DNA from: Tepidisphaeraceae bacterium
Lineage (GTDB): Bacteria > Planctomycetota > Phycisphaerae > Tepidisphaerales > Tepidisphaeraceae
Assembly (NCBI GenBank): GCA_035998445.1
Contig: DASYHQ010000017.1
Span: 124,001 to 188,000, forward strand
Reading direction: 5' to 3'
Length of the DNA stretch: 64,000 bases
Shown here: one piece after another, positions 22,199 to 26,742 of the stretch
Layout: each line of letters opens with the position of its first letter
Position numbering within the stretch: position 1 is the first letter of the stretch
The notes under the pieces: generated by a model
Database searches by the model: none
What the model was told of the DNA's origin: nothing
The model's input: only the letters and a program-made list of their open reading frames with translations
Program-made: the position numbers and the translations under genes

Positions 22199-22558
22199 GT
22201 GGTGCGAACGCGTGCGCGGATCCTCTGTACCTTCGTCGTCGCGGCATCTCTGTCGGGATGCACGCTGCCGCCGCGTGGTGCGCGGTATGCGGGTGATCCG
22301 GATCCAAGCATCAAGATTCCGGCCATCCGCCAAGTGGCGGCACAGCGCGATACGGCGCAGGTGCCCGTCGTGGTGAAGGACCTCTCCAGCGACGACCCGG
22401 CCGTCCGGTTCTACGCGATTCGCGCGCTACAGAAGATGACCGACGGCGACGCCAAAGGGTACGTCTACTACGCGCCCGACGACGAACGCGCCGCTGCGGT
22501 CGAGCGGTGGCAGGCGTGGCTGGCCGACGAACAACAGCAGAACGGGGGCGCCCGCTGA
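22199..22558 (+). CDS. Small HEAT-repeat lipoprotein
   Basis: A 119-residue protein with a lipoprotein signal peptide (lipobox LSGC at residues 18-21) and one HEAT-type repeat pair (IPAIRQVAAQRDTAQVPVVV, then DDPAVRFYAIRALQKM). Likely a membrane-anchored scaffold; the partner is unknown. GTG start at 22199 (a second GTG follows). It ends 36 bases before the RsbW-like gene and may be the first gene of the transcript that runs into the STAS and mla genes. Confidence 0.75.
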   Translation: MVRTRARILCTFVVAASLSGCTLPPRGARYAGDPDPSIKIPAIRQVAAQRDTAQVPVVVKDLSSDDPAVRFYAIRALQKMTDGDAKGYVYYAPDDERAAAVERWQAWLADEQQQNGGAR

Positions 22559-22594: not shown

Positions 22595-23044
22595 ATGCCA
22601 TCCGCCAATCCATCCAACGCGGCGCTCGACCTGTCGATCACCAGTGATCCGGCGCAGCTGGCGCCGGCGCGCAAGTCGATCGAGTCGTTCTGCCTGTCGC
22701 ACGGGCTGGACGAGAAGGCGACCGAGGACATGGGCCTGTGCGTAAACGAGGCGATGGCCAACATCACCCGCCACGCCTACGCCGGCCGCACCGATCGCCC
22801 GATCGCGCTGCGGGCGGCCGATACCGGGCAGGCCGTCGAGGTGTCGATGCGCGACTGGGGCAACGGCGTGAACCCCGCAGAATTAGCCGTGAAACCCAAG
22901 GATCCGCTCGTGCCCGGTGGGCTCGGGTTGGTATGCTTGCGCAGCCTGATGGACGACGTACGATTTGAACCGCAAGCGGACGGCATGCGGCTGACGCTGA
23001 CCAAGCGGAAGACGCCCGCGACAAAGGAGCCCTCGCATGACTGA
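22595..23044 (+). CDS. RsbW-like serine-kinase / anti-sigma factor ATPase
   Basis: A 149-residue GHKL ATPase of the RsbW/SpoIIAB type. The N box is NEAMANITRHAY, the G1 box is DWGNGVNP (DxGxG) and the G2 region is GGLGLVCLRSLMD. Such kinases phosphorylate a STAS antagonist and hold a sigma factor or other target. The stop overlaps the start of the STAS gene (23037), so the two are translationally coupled and very probably a pair. No sigma factor or PP2C phosphatase gene is nearby; mlaE-F-D follow instead. Confidence 0.9.
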   Translation: MPSANPSNAALDLSITSDPAQLAPARKSIESFCLSHGLDEKATEDMGLCVNEAMANITRHAYAGRTDRPIALRAADTGQAVEVSMRDWGNGVNPAELAVKPKDPLVPGGLGLVCLRSLMDDVRFEPQADGMRLTLTKRKTPATKEPSHD

Positions 23045-23399
23045 ACTGAAGACCGGCACCAACCTCGTCCCCACCGCCCGCGTCGTTGACGGCACCGCGG
23101 TCGTGGCGGCGCTGAAGGGCGAGATCGACCTGCACAACAGCCCGGTCATCCGCACCACCCTGCTCGATTTGCTGGCCAAGCATCAGCCGAAGAAGCTGGT
23201 GCTGAACCTGTCGCAGGTGCCTTACATGGACTCGAGCGCCATCGCCGTGCTGGTCGAATCGTTGAAACGCATCCGCAACAACGGCGGGAAGATCTACCTG
23301 ACCAACCTCCAGCCCCGCGTGAAGGGATTGCTGGAGATCGCGCGATTGAACGCCATCTTCGGCATCTGCGCCGACGAGGCCGAAGCGCTGGCGGTGTAA
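23037..23399 (+). CDS. STAS-domain protein (RsbV-like antagonist or MlaB-like subunit)
   Basis: A 120-residue STAS domain with the phospho-site loop VPYMDSSAIAVLVESL and the downstream GGKIYLTNLQPRVKGLLEIARL helix. The start overlaps the RsbW-like gene by 8 bases, and AAAGGAG precedes the ATG. The candidate Ser next to Asp fits a kinase substrate. Because mlaE, mlaF and mlaD follow, an alternative is that it serves as MlaB, the STAS subunit that binds MlaF in proteobacteria. Both roles could hold. Repeat G separates it from mlaE, so co-transcription is likely but unproven. Confidence 0.9.
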   Translation: MTELKTGTNLVPTARVVDGTAVVAALKGEIDLHNSPVIRTTLLDLLAKHQPKKLVLNLSQVPYMDSSAIAVLVESLKRIRNNGGKIYLTNLQPRVKGLLEIARLNAIFGICADEAEALAV

Positions 23400-23414
23400 C
23401 TTGGGAAGATCTTT

Positions 23415-23535
23415 CCGGTCCCCTCTCCCGGTACGCCGGGAGAGGGTTAGGGTGAGGGTGATTTCGAACATCGAGAGTCGTCAGCTGTACGAAATCACCC
23501 TCACCCATCCTCTCCCAAAGCATGCGGGAGAGGAG
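23415..23535. repeat. Palindromic repeat family G, copy 1
   Basis: GGGAGAGGGTTAGGGTGAGG followed about 30 bp later by its near reverse complement, with an inner hairpin CTCTCCCGG/CCGGGAGAG at the left. It lies between the STAS gene and mlaE. The HPHPNPLPAYRERG-type peptides are translations of it. Confidence 0.8.
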
Positions 23536-23574
23536 CCAGATCACGGTTGCTGAACGCGTTACGGCCTATATACC

Positions 23575-24384
23575 ATGGACTTCCTCCGCCCCATCTCCGC
23601 CCTTGGCGCCTTTACGATCGGCGTGCTCGAGTTCATCGGCGGTCTGGGCTATCTGCTGCTGGACACGCTAGGCGTCGCGCGGCAGGGTCTGATCGACAAG
23701 CGCACGCGGTCGGCGGGTTGGGAGAACCTGTGGACGCAGATGGTGCGCGTCGGCGTGATGAGCGTGCCGATCGTCAGCCTCGTGTTGTTCTGCATCGGCG
23801 CCATCCTGGCGCTGCAGATGGCCCCCGTCTTGGCCGACTACGGCGAGGTTCGCCGGGTGGCGGACCTGATCTCGATCGCGACGTTTCGGGAACTCGGCCC
23901 GCTGGTAAGCGCCATCGTGCTGACCGGCTTCGCCGGCGCCAGCATCGCCGCGGAACTAGGGACGATGGTGGTCTCAGAAGAAATTGAAGCGCTTGAGGCG
24001 CTGGCGATCCCCCCCGCTCGATTCCTGGTGCTGCCCCGCGTGCTGGCGACCACCTGCATGATGGTCTGCGTCGCCGTCGTTGGCGATCTGATGGGCGTGA
24101 TCGGCGGCCTCGTTGTGGCGACCTCGCTGCTGGGGTTGGATGGTGGCCAATATGTACAGCGCACGTTCGACGCGGTTCGCCTGATGGATTTTCTAACCGG
24201 CCTCGTGAAGGCTGGCGTGTTCGGTGTGCTGATCAGCGCCCTCGCCTGCTATCTCGGCCTGAGCGTTCGCGGTGGCGCCCAGGGCGTAGGCGTGGCGACC
24301 ACCCGCACCGTCGTCTACACGATCGTCGCGCTCATCATCGTCGACCTGATGTTCACCAGCGTCTTTTACGCCATGGGATGGTAA
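23575..24384 (+). CDS. mlaE: MlaE-type ABC transporter permease
   Basis: A 269-residue integral membrane protein of the MlaE/YrbE family. The signatures are MSVPIVSLVLFCIGAILALQ, FRELGPLVSAIVLTGFAGAS, IAAELGTMVVSEEIEALEAL (the EQ-loop that meets the ATPase), and a C-terminal pair of helices. It forms the inner-membrane channel of the Mla phospholipid transport complex with MlaF and MlaD. The next gene is mlaF, 73 bases on. About 25 residues of extra N-terminus precede the first family block. Confidence 0.95.
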   Translation: MDFLRPISALGAFTIGVLEFIGGLGYLLLDTLGVARQGLIDKRTRSAGWENLWTQMVRVGVMSVPIVSLVLFCIGAILALQMAPVLADYGEVRRVADLISIATFRELGPLVSAIVLTGFAGASIAAELGTMVVSEEIEALEALAIPPARFLVLPRVLATTCMMVCVAVVGDLMGVIGGLVVATSLLGLDGGQYVQRTFDAVRLMDFLTGLVKAGVFGVLISALACYLGLSVRGGAQGVGVATTRTVVYTIVALIIVDLMFTSVFYAMGW

Positions 24385-24457
24385 AGGAATTGCCGATTTT
24401 TGATTTGCGATTGAAGGGCAAGACGATCAATGGCAAATCGGCAATCGAAAATCGCAA

Positions 24458-25258
24458 ATGGCAGAAGCCCTCATCCAAGTTCAGGACGTCACCAAGCGGT
24501 TCGGCGAGCGCACGATCCTCGATGGAATCCGGCTCGACGTGTTGCGCGGCGAGACGCTGGTCATCATGGGTGGGTCGGGGTCGGGCAAGTCGACGCTGCT
24601 GCGCACGATGATCGGCAACGAGCGCACCGATGGCGGCGCGATCATCGGGTTTGGGAAGAACATCTGCGGGATGGACGCCGAGCAATTGTCGGGGTATCGC
24701 AAGTCGATCGGCGTGCTGTTTCAAAGCGGCGCGCTTTTCAACAGCATGACGGTCGCCGAGAACGTTGCCCTGCCGCTGCGCGAGCACACGGACCTGCCGC
24801 CGGAGACGATCGACATTATCGTGAAGATCAAGCTGGAACAGGTGGGCCTGCGCGAACATGCCCGCAAGATGCCCTCGGAACTGTCGGGCGGCATGAAGAA
24901 GCGTGCCGGCCTGGCACGGGCAATCGCGCTCGACCCTCAGATTTTGTTTTACGACGAGCCCAGCGCAGGGCTGGACCCGGTTACCAGCAGCGAGATCGAC
25001 GTGTTGATCAACGACCTGAAGAACAAGCTGGGCGTCACCAGCGTCGTGGTGACGCACGAGATGGACAGCGCCTTCCGCATCGCCGACCGCATGGTGCTGC
25101 TGGACCGCGGGAAATTCATCGTCAGCGGCACGCCCCAGGAAATGCGCGCCAGCACCGACCCGCTCGTACGGCAGTTCATCGACGGCCTGACCGAAGGCCC
25201 CCTCACCGATCGGCGTCGCGGGGGTGAGTATGAGCTGGATTTGCTTGGGGCAGAGTGA
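24458..25258 (+). CDS. mlaF: MlaF-type ABC transporter ATPase
   Basis: The ATP-hydrolysing subunit of the Mla lipid transporter, 266 residues. Walker A is GGSGSGKSTL, the signature LSGGMKKRAGLARA, Walker B ILFYDEPSAGLDP and the H-loop VVVTHEMDSA. The C-terminal 25 residues (DRRRGGEYELDLLG) are a short tail like the one that contacts the partner subunit in E. coli. Before the gene, 24390-24457 holds an inverted pair of GATTTGCGAT-type repeats. It follows mlaE and precedes mlaD. Confidence 0.95.
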   Translation: MAEALIQVQDVTKRFGERTILDGIRLDVLRGETLVIMGGSGSGKSTLLRTMIGNERTDGGAIIGFGKNICGMDAEQLSGYRKSIGVLFQSGALFNSMTVAENVALPLREHTDLPPETIDIIVKIKLEQVGLREHARKMPSELSGGMKKRAGLARAIALDPQILFYDEPSAGLDPVTSSEIDVLINDLKNKLGVTSVVVTHEMDSAFRIADRMVLLDRGKFIVSGTPQEMRASTDPLVRQFIDGLTEGPLTDRRRGGEYELDLLGAE

Positions 25259-25474
25259 AGTAGCAAAGCAGGAGTTGGAACCGCCAAGGACGCCATGAAC
25301 GTCAAGCGAAGAGGAAGCGGAGATAGAGGATGGGAAAACGAATAGGAGTCAACGGGAGCGCCGGTCGGTCGACCGCGACTCTCCTCCATTTTCGATTCTC
25401 GTTTTTCTCCTCCTTCCCTTGGGGCTCTTGGCGACCTTGGCGTTTCGTAATTCTGCGGATCAGTGGATGTACCT

Positions 25475-26671
25475 ATGGATAAGCAACGCAACAACCTCCG
25501 GGCCGGTTTGTTCATCGTGGTCAGCGTGCTGCTGATCCTCGGGGTGATCGTGGGTATCAAGGGCGTCGGCACGCTCTTCACGCCGGCGAACCTGCACACG
25601 GTCAGCTTCAACCTGAGCGACGACGTCAGCGGCCTGGCGGTCGGTGACGCGGTGCGGCTGGGCGGCGTATCGGTCGGCGTGGTGCGCAGCATCGAGTTCG
25701 ACGGCGCAACGGAACCAAAGGTTGTGGTCTCCTTCACCGCGCCGCAGCGGTTCGCGCTGAAGCGCGACGCGCGCATCGGCATCCAGAGCACGCTCACCGG
25801 CAACACGTGGCTGAACATCGACAGTCTCGGCGCGGGAGAAGCGCTCGCCAGTGGTGAATCGCTGGTCGGTCGACCGAGTGCATTCAGTCAGCTGTTCGCT
25901 GCGGTGGGCGAGATCGGGCCGGAGTTGAAGGGCGCGTTGACCGACGTGCGCACGCAGACGCTGCCGAAGGTGAACACCGCCGTCGATGGCTTTGCCGACA
26001 CCGGCCCGGCGGCGACGGCGCTGCTGAAGCACGTAGATGCGAAAATCGACCCCGCCGTCGAGAAGTACGATGCCTTGGCCGACACCGGCACCGACGCGCT
26101 GGCCAACATTCGCGACATCGCCGGCGACACGAAGGGCGACTTCCGGTCGACCATGTCGAACCTGTCGAGCGTGACCGGCAGCGCCAAGGACAAGGTGCCC
26201 GCGATCCTGGACAAGGTTGACGCGTTCGCCGCCACCGCGAACGGGACGATCGACCGCGCGCAGTCGGCCGTTACCGACCTGCAGGCGGCGCTGGCGAACA
26301 CGAAGGACCTCACCGGTTCGGCGCGCGGCCTGCTCGTGCGCAACCGCGGGAAGATCGACGACTTGGCCGCGTCATTGAAGACCACCGGCGACAACCTGAA
26401 GGCCGCCACCGCCGAGATCCGCCGCAGCCCGTGGCGGCTGTTGTACAAGCCGGGCCCGGGTGAGATGGCCAATCTGAACCTTTACGACGCCGCCCGCCAG
26501 TTCGCGGACGGCGCCGGTGACCTCAGCGACGCCGCCGTGTCGCTGCGCGATCTGTTGGACGATCCTGATGCCAAGCCCGAACAGGTCGAGAAGCTCATCG
26601 AACGGCTCGATCAGACGTTCACGGAATTTCAGACGGTCGAGCAGAAGCTGTGGAGCAGCGTGAAGCAGTGA
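25475..26671 (+). CDS. mlaD: MlaD-type MCE-domain lipid transport protein
   Basis: One N-terminal transmembrane helix (LRAGLFIVVSVLLILGVIVG) is followed by an MCE domain (HTVSFNLSDDVSGLAVGDAV, VRLGGVSVGVVRSIEF, STLTGNTWLNID). A long helical region of about 250 residues, rich in Ala/Asp/Thr, comes after it. The MCE domain forms the hexameric periplasmic ring that passes lipid. The helical tail is much longer than in E. coli MlaD and may make a needle or tunnel toward the outer membrane, as in PqiB/LetB-type proteins. Frame open from GTG 25463; the ATG at 25475 is preferred. The 216-bp gap before it carries an inverted 'aaggacgcc' type repeat. Confidence 0.92.
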   Translation: MDKQRNNLRAGLFIVVSVLLILGVIVGIKGVGTLFTPANLHTVSFNLSDDVSGLAVGDAVRLGGVSVGVVRSIEFDGATEPKVVVSFTAPQRFALKRDARIGIQSTLTGNTWLNIDSLGAGEALASGESLVGRPSAFSQLFAAVGEIGPELKGALTDVRTQTLPKVNTAVDGFADTGPAATALLKHVDAKIDPAVEKYDALADTGTDALANIRDIAGDTKGDFRSTMSNLSSVTGSAKDKVPAILDKVDAFAATANGTIDRAQSAVTDLQAALANTKDLTGSARGLLVRNRGKIDDLAASLKTTGDNLKAATAEIRRSPWRLLYKPGPGEMANLNLYDAARQFADGAGDLSDAAVSLRDLLDDPDAKPEQVEKLIERLDQTFTEFQTVEQKLWSSVKQ

Positions 26672-26708: not shown

Positions 26709-26742
26709 GGCTCCTCTCCCGGAGTACCGGGAGAGGGGACCG
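26709..26742. repeat. Palindromic repeat family G, copy 2 (short)
   Basis: CTCCTCTCCCGGAGTACCGG and GGGAGAGG, the hairpin half of the element at 23415-23535. It sits right after the mlaD stop and may end that transcript. Confidence 0.6.

Follow-up and report, generated by a model that had tools for sequence, protein, structure and literature searches.

A predicted serine kinase and a STAS protein encoded with the Mla lipid transporter: a candidate phospho-switch in Phycisphaerae

In a genome of a Tepidisphaeraceae bacterium, genes for a predicted RsbW-like kinase and a STAS-domain protein precede those of an Mla-type lipid transporter. This locus, located in a 64,000-nucleotide stretch of contig DASYHQ010000017.1 (positions 124,001 to 188,000; hereafter, the window), raises the question of whether the transporter is under the control of the kinase. 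A related question exists for Escherichia coli, where phosphorylation of the STAS subunit MlaB at Thr52 was proposed in one paper and hypothesised in another, with no evidence in cells and no kinase (PMC7367683, PMC5016091). The T52E substitution in MlaB weakens MlaF binding in pull-down assays, and the regulator was called an open question (PMC7367683). Based on comparisons of sequences and gene neighbourhoods, we consider it probable, although far from assured, that the operon in the window encodes an MlaEFD lipid transporter in which the STAS protein does the job of MlaB and a dedicated serine kinase controls the STAS protein via Ser66. Our results suggest that a transporter subunit under kinase control is the simplest account; from this we infer the phosphorylation of Ser66, its direction (an off switch) and the signal behind it. 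If true, this would be a partner switch with a membrane transporter, rather than a sigma factor, as its output. Given that the kinase and its likely substrate are encoded beside the transporter in several phyla, the open question of MlaB phosphorylation could be addressed in experiments on a handful of purified proteins.

Components of the operon

The genes and sites on which the argument rests are listed below.

22595–23044, + strand: kinase gene (KIN), encoding a predicted RsbW/SpoIIAB-type GHKL serine kinase of 149 amino acids (PF13581 HATPase_c_2, E 2.9e-28)
22748–22762, + strand: N-box of the kinase, Glu52...Asn56 (E52, A53 and N56 unchanged in all 65 orthologues)
22853–22927, + strand: G1 (Asp87-x-Gly89) and G2 (Pro107-Gly-Gly-Leu-Gly111) boxes of the kinase, ATP site (D87, P107, G108, G109 and G111 invariant in 65/65)
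23037–23399, + strand: gene for the STAS protein, SpoIIAA-like with a longer C-terminus, 120 amino acids, a proposed MlaB-like subunit (PF01740, E 7.4e-25)
23229–23237, + strand: Asp65-Ser66-Ser67 of the STAS protein (Ser66 is the acceptor by homology with SpoIIAA Ser58)
23575–24384, + strand: mlaE (permease), of the type B orthologue group defined below (PF02405, E 2.9e-65)
24458–25258, + strand: mlaF (ATPase; PRK11831 MlaF, E 1.2e-77)
25229–25246, + strand: putative docking residues Tyr258, Leu262 and Leu263 in the MlaF C-terminus (by alignment to E. coli Tyr261, Leu265 and Leu266)
25463–26671, + strand: mlaD, a long-form MCE protein with a helical tail and a GTG start (PF02470 MlaD, E 2.9e-8; TIGR00996, E 4.7e-17)

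An initial annotation of this DNA had described an RsbW-like ATPase whose gene overlaps that of a STAS protein by 8 bases, an Asp-Ser-Ser site in the latter, and mlaE-mlaF-mlaD downstream on the same strand. All of these features hold in coordinates and family, with strong HATPase_c_2 and STAS matches; a sixth gene, encoding a HEAT-repeat lipoprotein upstream of the kinase, had been overlooked. The MlaE permease, MlaF ATPase and MCE-domain MlaD are encoded together, as in known Mla transporters, and the three proteins pass the Pfam cut-offs and fall below those of the E. coli-type equivalog models.

The kinase matched the PDB profiles of RsbW (6m36, E 4e-23) and SpoIIAB, and its predicted fold matched SpoIIAB with a Z score of 18.1. 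Its N, G1 and G2 boxes are intact, and E52, N56, D87 and the PGGxG motif were found in all 65 aligned orthologues. The protein has both the fold and the boxes of the SpoIIAB/RsbW group, and scores below the equivalog cut-offs of the RsbW and SpoIIAB models. The STAS protein scored 92.8 bits against the SpoIIAA/RsbV superfamily model TIGR00377 (cut-off 53.45), has the D-S acceptor at residues 65–67, aligns with SpoIIAA into the C-terminal part of the latter, and in predicted fold matched SpoIIAA (1th8) with a Z score of 19.4. The acceptor is probably the first serine (Ser66), because the S58A variant of SpoIIAA in 1tid aligns as D-A-S-G. Against the MlaB model NF033618, the STAS protein reached 19.4 bits, where the curated cut-off is 90, and MlaB was a remote profile match (E about 7e-4). 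Because the protein fails the curated MlaB model, we describe the protein as MlaB-like in role and do not file it as MlaB. What it shares with MlaB is its setting, namely, a gene within an mla operon whose MlaF carries the C-terminal extension used for docking.

In an orthologous locus (L065), the kinase, STAS, mlaE and mlaF genes lie in one frame, and AlphaFold2 was applied to single chains read through the natural stop codons. The kinase and STAS protein as one chain gave a predicted local distance difference test score (pLDDT) of 87.6 and a predicted template modelling score (pTM) of 0.79, with pLDDT > 90 over most of both domains. Given that a pTM of approximately 0.5 (our own estimate) would be expected for two freely oriented domains, the packing of the predicted kinase against the STAS protein looks confident by this score.

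Gene order and co-loss in Phycisphaerae

To the MlaE of the window, searches of 150 genomes of the class Phycisphaerae assigned an orthologue group with at least 44% identity in 108/150 genomes (type B), distinct from a lower-scoring paralogue (type A). The DNA around 107 type-B genes was scanned with profiles from the proteins of the window. The commonest order at these loci was HEAT-kinase-STAS-mlaE-mlaF-mlaD. The STAS gene adjoins type-B mlaE in 100 of the 107 assessable genomes (98 loci in the motif analysis below, plus L097 and L169), and the kinase is present in 70 of the 108 type-B genomes; conservation of the gene order, which the initial annotation had left to be checked, is far above the chance expectation. 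Among the remaining seven genomes, six have an orthologous STAS gene elsewhere, mostly with the HEAT and kinase genes, and only G141 has none. A STAS gene beside type-A mlaE was found once among 31 genes. Approximately 30 genomes retained kinase-STAS-mlaE together with mlaF and mlaD relocated. A STAS-kinase pair lying apart from mla in most relatives would have spoken against a functional link, and the HEAT-kinase-STAS trio was apart in only 4 or 5 of the 108 genomes.

These few split loci would be consistent with an old operon preserved by chance, without a functional link between the neighbours. We regard this as highly improbable. The arrangement recurs in at least seven phyla, many rearrangements leave the STAS gene with mla (in two families it lies immediately next to mlaF), and the split genes still co-occur in the genome. 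The co-loss and motif decay described below also disfavour it.

The kinase orthologue was absent from 41 of the 42 Phycisphaerae genomes without type-B MlaE. The exception, G096, has a lone kinase gene, plus a STAS gene adjoining a divergent MlaE, the MlaF of which groups with type B. At this locus (L181), the divergent mlaE stands beside two STAS genes, and the kinase gene is located alone elsewhere; a rebuilt operon is possible.

The genome of the window (5.84 Mb, 64 contigs) contains 11 STAS and 18 HATPase_c_2 matches and only two MlaE genes. A separate MlaB elsewhere, which the initial annotation had named as a difficulty for its proposal, did not emerge: no STAS gene was found adjoining the second MlaE gene (contig C13). 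Seven SpoIIE-type phosphatases are encoded in this genome, none of which adjoins the operon. Contig C61 (L171) carries a second STAS-kinase pair apart from mla, with a distantly related kinase (57 bits against the kinase profile).

A sigma-factor switch is the main rival explanation. In such a transcriptional partner switch, the kinase would be an anti-sigma factor and the STAS protein its antagonist, the freed sigma factor would control mla or other envelope genes, and the adjacency would result from co-regulation only. The similarity of both proteins, which are closest to SpoIIAB/SpoIIAA and RsbW/RsbV, and the other pair on contig C61 are consistent with this possibility. However, there is no sigma-factor gene within the operon, and nearly all genomes that lack the transporter also lack the kinase. 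The STAS gene stays beside mlaE in at least 10 kinase-less lineages, where an anti-anti-sigma factor would lack its kinase partner, and the MlaB-docking tail of MlaF tracks the STAS protein. We therefore consider a sigma-factor switch unlikely, although it deserves more weight than the other alternatives.

Motif decay and the MlaF docking tail

Control of the STAS protein by the kinase can be examined where the kinase has been lost. The kinase was absent from 34 genomes in which the STAS gene still adjoins mlaE; no sequence in these genomes scored above 74 bits against the kinase profile, compared with 143–195 bits for the orthologues. One alignment used in the kinase search included an out-of-frame row (L103), and the orthologues still scored > 55 bits above all others within the class. 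The STAS motif was DSS in 64/64 kinase-bearing loci. Among the kinase-less loci, DSS was found in 14/34, and the others had GGA, NGA, HGA, SGA, DSA, DSG or SSP. On the MlaE tree, the kinase was lost 13 times and DSS was lost independently six times, with all six DSS losses on kinase-less branches; such branches account for no more than 26% of the total branch length, and six losses placed at random along the tree would all fall on them with p about 3e-4. An independent-pairs test was underpowered (median p 0.25), with all differing pairs in the same direction.

An alternative is that the STAS protein is a constitutive, structural MlaB, with the kinase acting as a chaperone or a competitor for the STAS protein without phospho-regulation, and with DSS kept for kinase binding only. 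In E. coli, MlaB T52A abolishes ATPase activity even though the complex still assembles (PMC5016091), and no phosphorylation is known; moreover, the kinase-less lineages retain the STAS protein, some of them with an intact DSS. All catalytic residues of the kinase are nevertheless invariant in 65/65 orthologues, which binding alone would not demand, and we judge this alternative improbable. Under kinase control of the STAS subunit, lineages that lack the kinase and keep both the STAS protein and the docking tail would be consistent with reversion to a constitutive subunit.

The second line of evidence concerns MlaF. In E. coli, Tyr261, Leu265 and Leu266 in the C-terminal extension of MlaF occupy the groove that MlaB forms with the adjacent MlaF (PMC7367683). 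The MlaF of the window aligns with E. coli MlaF over the full length, including this extension. An aromatic residue (Tyr or Phe) was found at the position of Tyr261 in all 68 type-B MlaF proteins with a neighbouring STAS gene, 57 of which have all three residues strictly, whereas the docking residues were found in none of the 29 rows (24 distinct sequences) of STAS-less type-A MlaF. The motif was lost in G141, the only type-B genome without an orthologous STAS gene, and kept in G055, G062 and G121, where the STAS gene is elsewhere in the genome. The tail was also found in operons of this type in Omnitrophota, KSB1, Nitrospinota, Calditrichota, Nitrospirota and Tectimicrobiota. In family f76 (L214, L218), which has a different arrangement, MlaF lacks the usual docking tail. 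The MlaF of L181 was considered as a STAS-less-type MlaF that had gained the tail; however, the MlaF tree placed it within type B, and thus it is not independent evidence for the tail.

The following mechanism could accommodate these observations. The unphosphorylated STAS protein would bind MlaF at its helical subdomain and be gripped there by Tyr258, Leu262 and Leu263 in the C-terminal tail of the adjacent MlaF, and would thereby keep the MlaF-MlaE complex active. The kinase would phosphorylate Ser66, which, by analogy with Thr52 of MlaB, may sit in the middle of the interface. Phosphorylation would then release the STAS protein and lower transport, acting as an off switch, and a PP2C (SpoIIE-type) phosphatase encoded elsewhere might reverse it.

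Several observations weigh against this interpretation. The STAS protein is closer in sequence to SpoIIAA, TM1442 and RsbV than to MlaB and has an additional C-terminal strand and helix absent in MlaB; in the predicted model of the L065 orthologue, these correspond to E292-294 and H297-302, and the domain is not the minimal STAS form without a fifth strand and last helix. Of the six lineages without DSS, only two have lost the acceptor serine (p about 0.07, not significant); the other four altered the second serine, and TM1442 carries DSA. The 14 kinase-less loci that retain DSS imply a kinase-independent role for the motif, comparable to that indicated by T52A in E. coli MlaB. The contrast between type-A and type-B tails represents one deep split plus one later loss. 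Finally, the STAS protein, MlaE and MlaF of L065 modelled as a single chain gave a pTM of 0.43 with no confident domain placement, from a thin alignment (52 rows) and with only one MlaF, although in E. coli the contact involves the tail of a second, adjacent copy. Thus, of the initial proposal of an MlaB switched by phosphorylation, a kinase-switched STAS subunit of Mla is favoured by the linkage across phyla, the decay of DSS and the MlaF tail, whereas formal membership in MlaB could not be upheld given the model score and the longer, SpoIIAA-type C-terminus.

Breadth and relation to known systems

Beyond Phycisphaerae, 19 of the 20 best-scoring kinases fetched from other Planctomycetota (111–155 bits) adjoin a STAS gene (DSSG) and mlaE or mlaF. 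A collection of 84,980 species was searched with the pattern YMDSS, and the 80 STAS genes closest to that of the window were taken. All 80 belong to this gene set: mlaE or mlaF could be seen near 74 of them, and the others were at contig ends or in split trios. The module was found in Omnitrophota, KSB1, Nitrospirota, Nitrospinota, Calditrichota, Tectimicrobiota and other Planctomycetota. Lower-scoring kinases of other Planctomycetota (88–113 bits) mostly formed pairs of their own with a STAS protein that carries an SSAG motif, had no mla next to them, and were set aside; among the 18 of these fetched, three adjoin mla with DSS or DSA, and two more have mla approximately 3 kb away on the opposite strand. 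Four loci (L260, L261, L296 and L311) came from bins titled Actinomycetes, Actinomycetota or Bacteroidetes, and these bins are probably mislabelled or mixed because their operons nearly match Phycisphaerae or KSB1 loci. We tentatively raise the idea, which we hold with less confidence than the reading of the operon itself, that a kinase-switched STAS subunit is an old and widespread control of MCE-type lipid ABC transporters, present in at least seven phyla, with the kinase-less MlaB of E. coli as a reduced form.

Three loci (L214, L218 and L219) encode fusion proteins of 573–601 amino acids that join the kinase domain to GAF and SpoIIE-type phosphatase domains, so that a single protein might serve as writer, sensor and eraser. 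The fusion gene adjoins the STAS gene and mlaF in L214 and L218 (family f76). Such a kinase-phosphatase in one chain is reminiscent of SypE of Vibrio fischeri, and the SypE/SypA pair is also similar in that the unphosphorylated STAS protein is taken as the active output (PMC8256260). The target of SypA is not known, whereas MlaF is the proposed target here. Compared with SpoIIAB/SpoIIAA and RsbW/RsbV of Bacillus, the gene pair, the folds (Z 18–19 to SpoIIAB and SpoIIAA), the DSS site and the GHKL boxes are alike; in contrast, the present pair has no sigma-factor gene, forms part of a transporter operon and disappears when the transporter does.

E. coli MlaFEDB and the present system share the MlaE, MlaF and MlaD families, a STAS gene in the operon, an MlaF extension with Tyr/Leu/Leu (PMC7367683, PMC5016091) and, at the equivalent STAS position, a residue that could be phosphorylated (Thr52 in MlaB, Ser66 here). 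They differ in that the operon described here has a kinase gene before the STAS gene, a SpoIIAA-like STAS protein with a longer C-terminus that fails the MlaB model, a long-form MlaD and, in Planctomycetota, an added HEAT lipoprotein gene. MlaEFD of Veillonella parvula has a similar MlaEFD core with a long MlaD and an operon without MlaA or MlaC, but is without MlaB and without a kinase (PMC10665443). The survey in the same study found MlaB to be sparsely distributed using an MlaB model, which the STAS protein of the window fails (PMC10665443); this suggests that counts of the STAS subunit are too low, given that surveys relied on the E. coli MlaB model. Every part of the operon belongs to a known family, and a description of an MlaB kinase or of this gene combination was not found in the open-licence papers searched.

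Two further features of the locus were noted. The first is the gene upstream of the kinase:

22199–22558, + strand: HEAT-repeat lipoprotein gene (PF13646, E 1.2e-7; lipobox LSGC)

This gene adjoins about 98 of the 108 loci of the class and accompanies STAS and mlaE in Planctomycetota, even after kinase loss; it was not found in the module operons of other phyla. Its product may be an uncharacterised envelope partner. The second is a palindromic repeat, CTCTCCCGG-N5-CCGGGAGAGG, located at 23423–23445 in the gap between the STAS gene and mlaE and again at 26714–26736 past mlaD, where none would be expected by chance; it looks like an interspersed element of the repetitive extragenic palindromic (REP) type.

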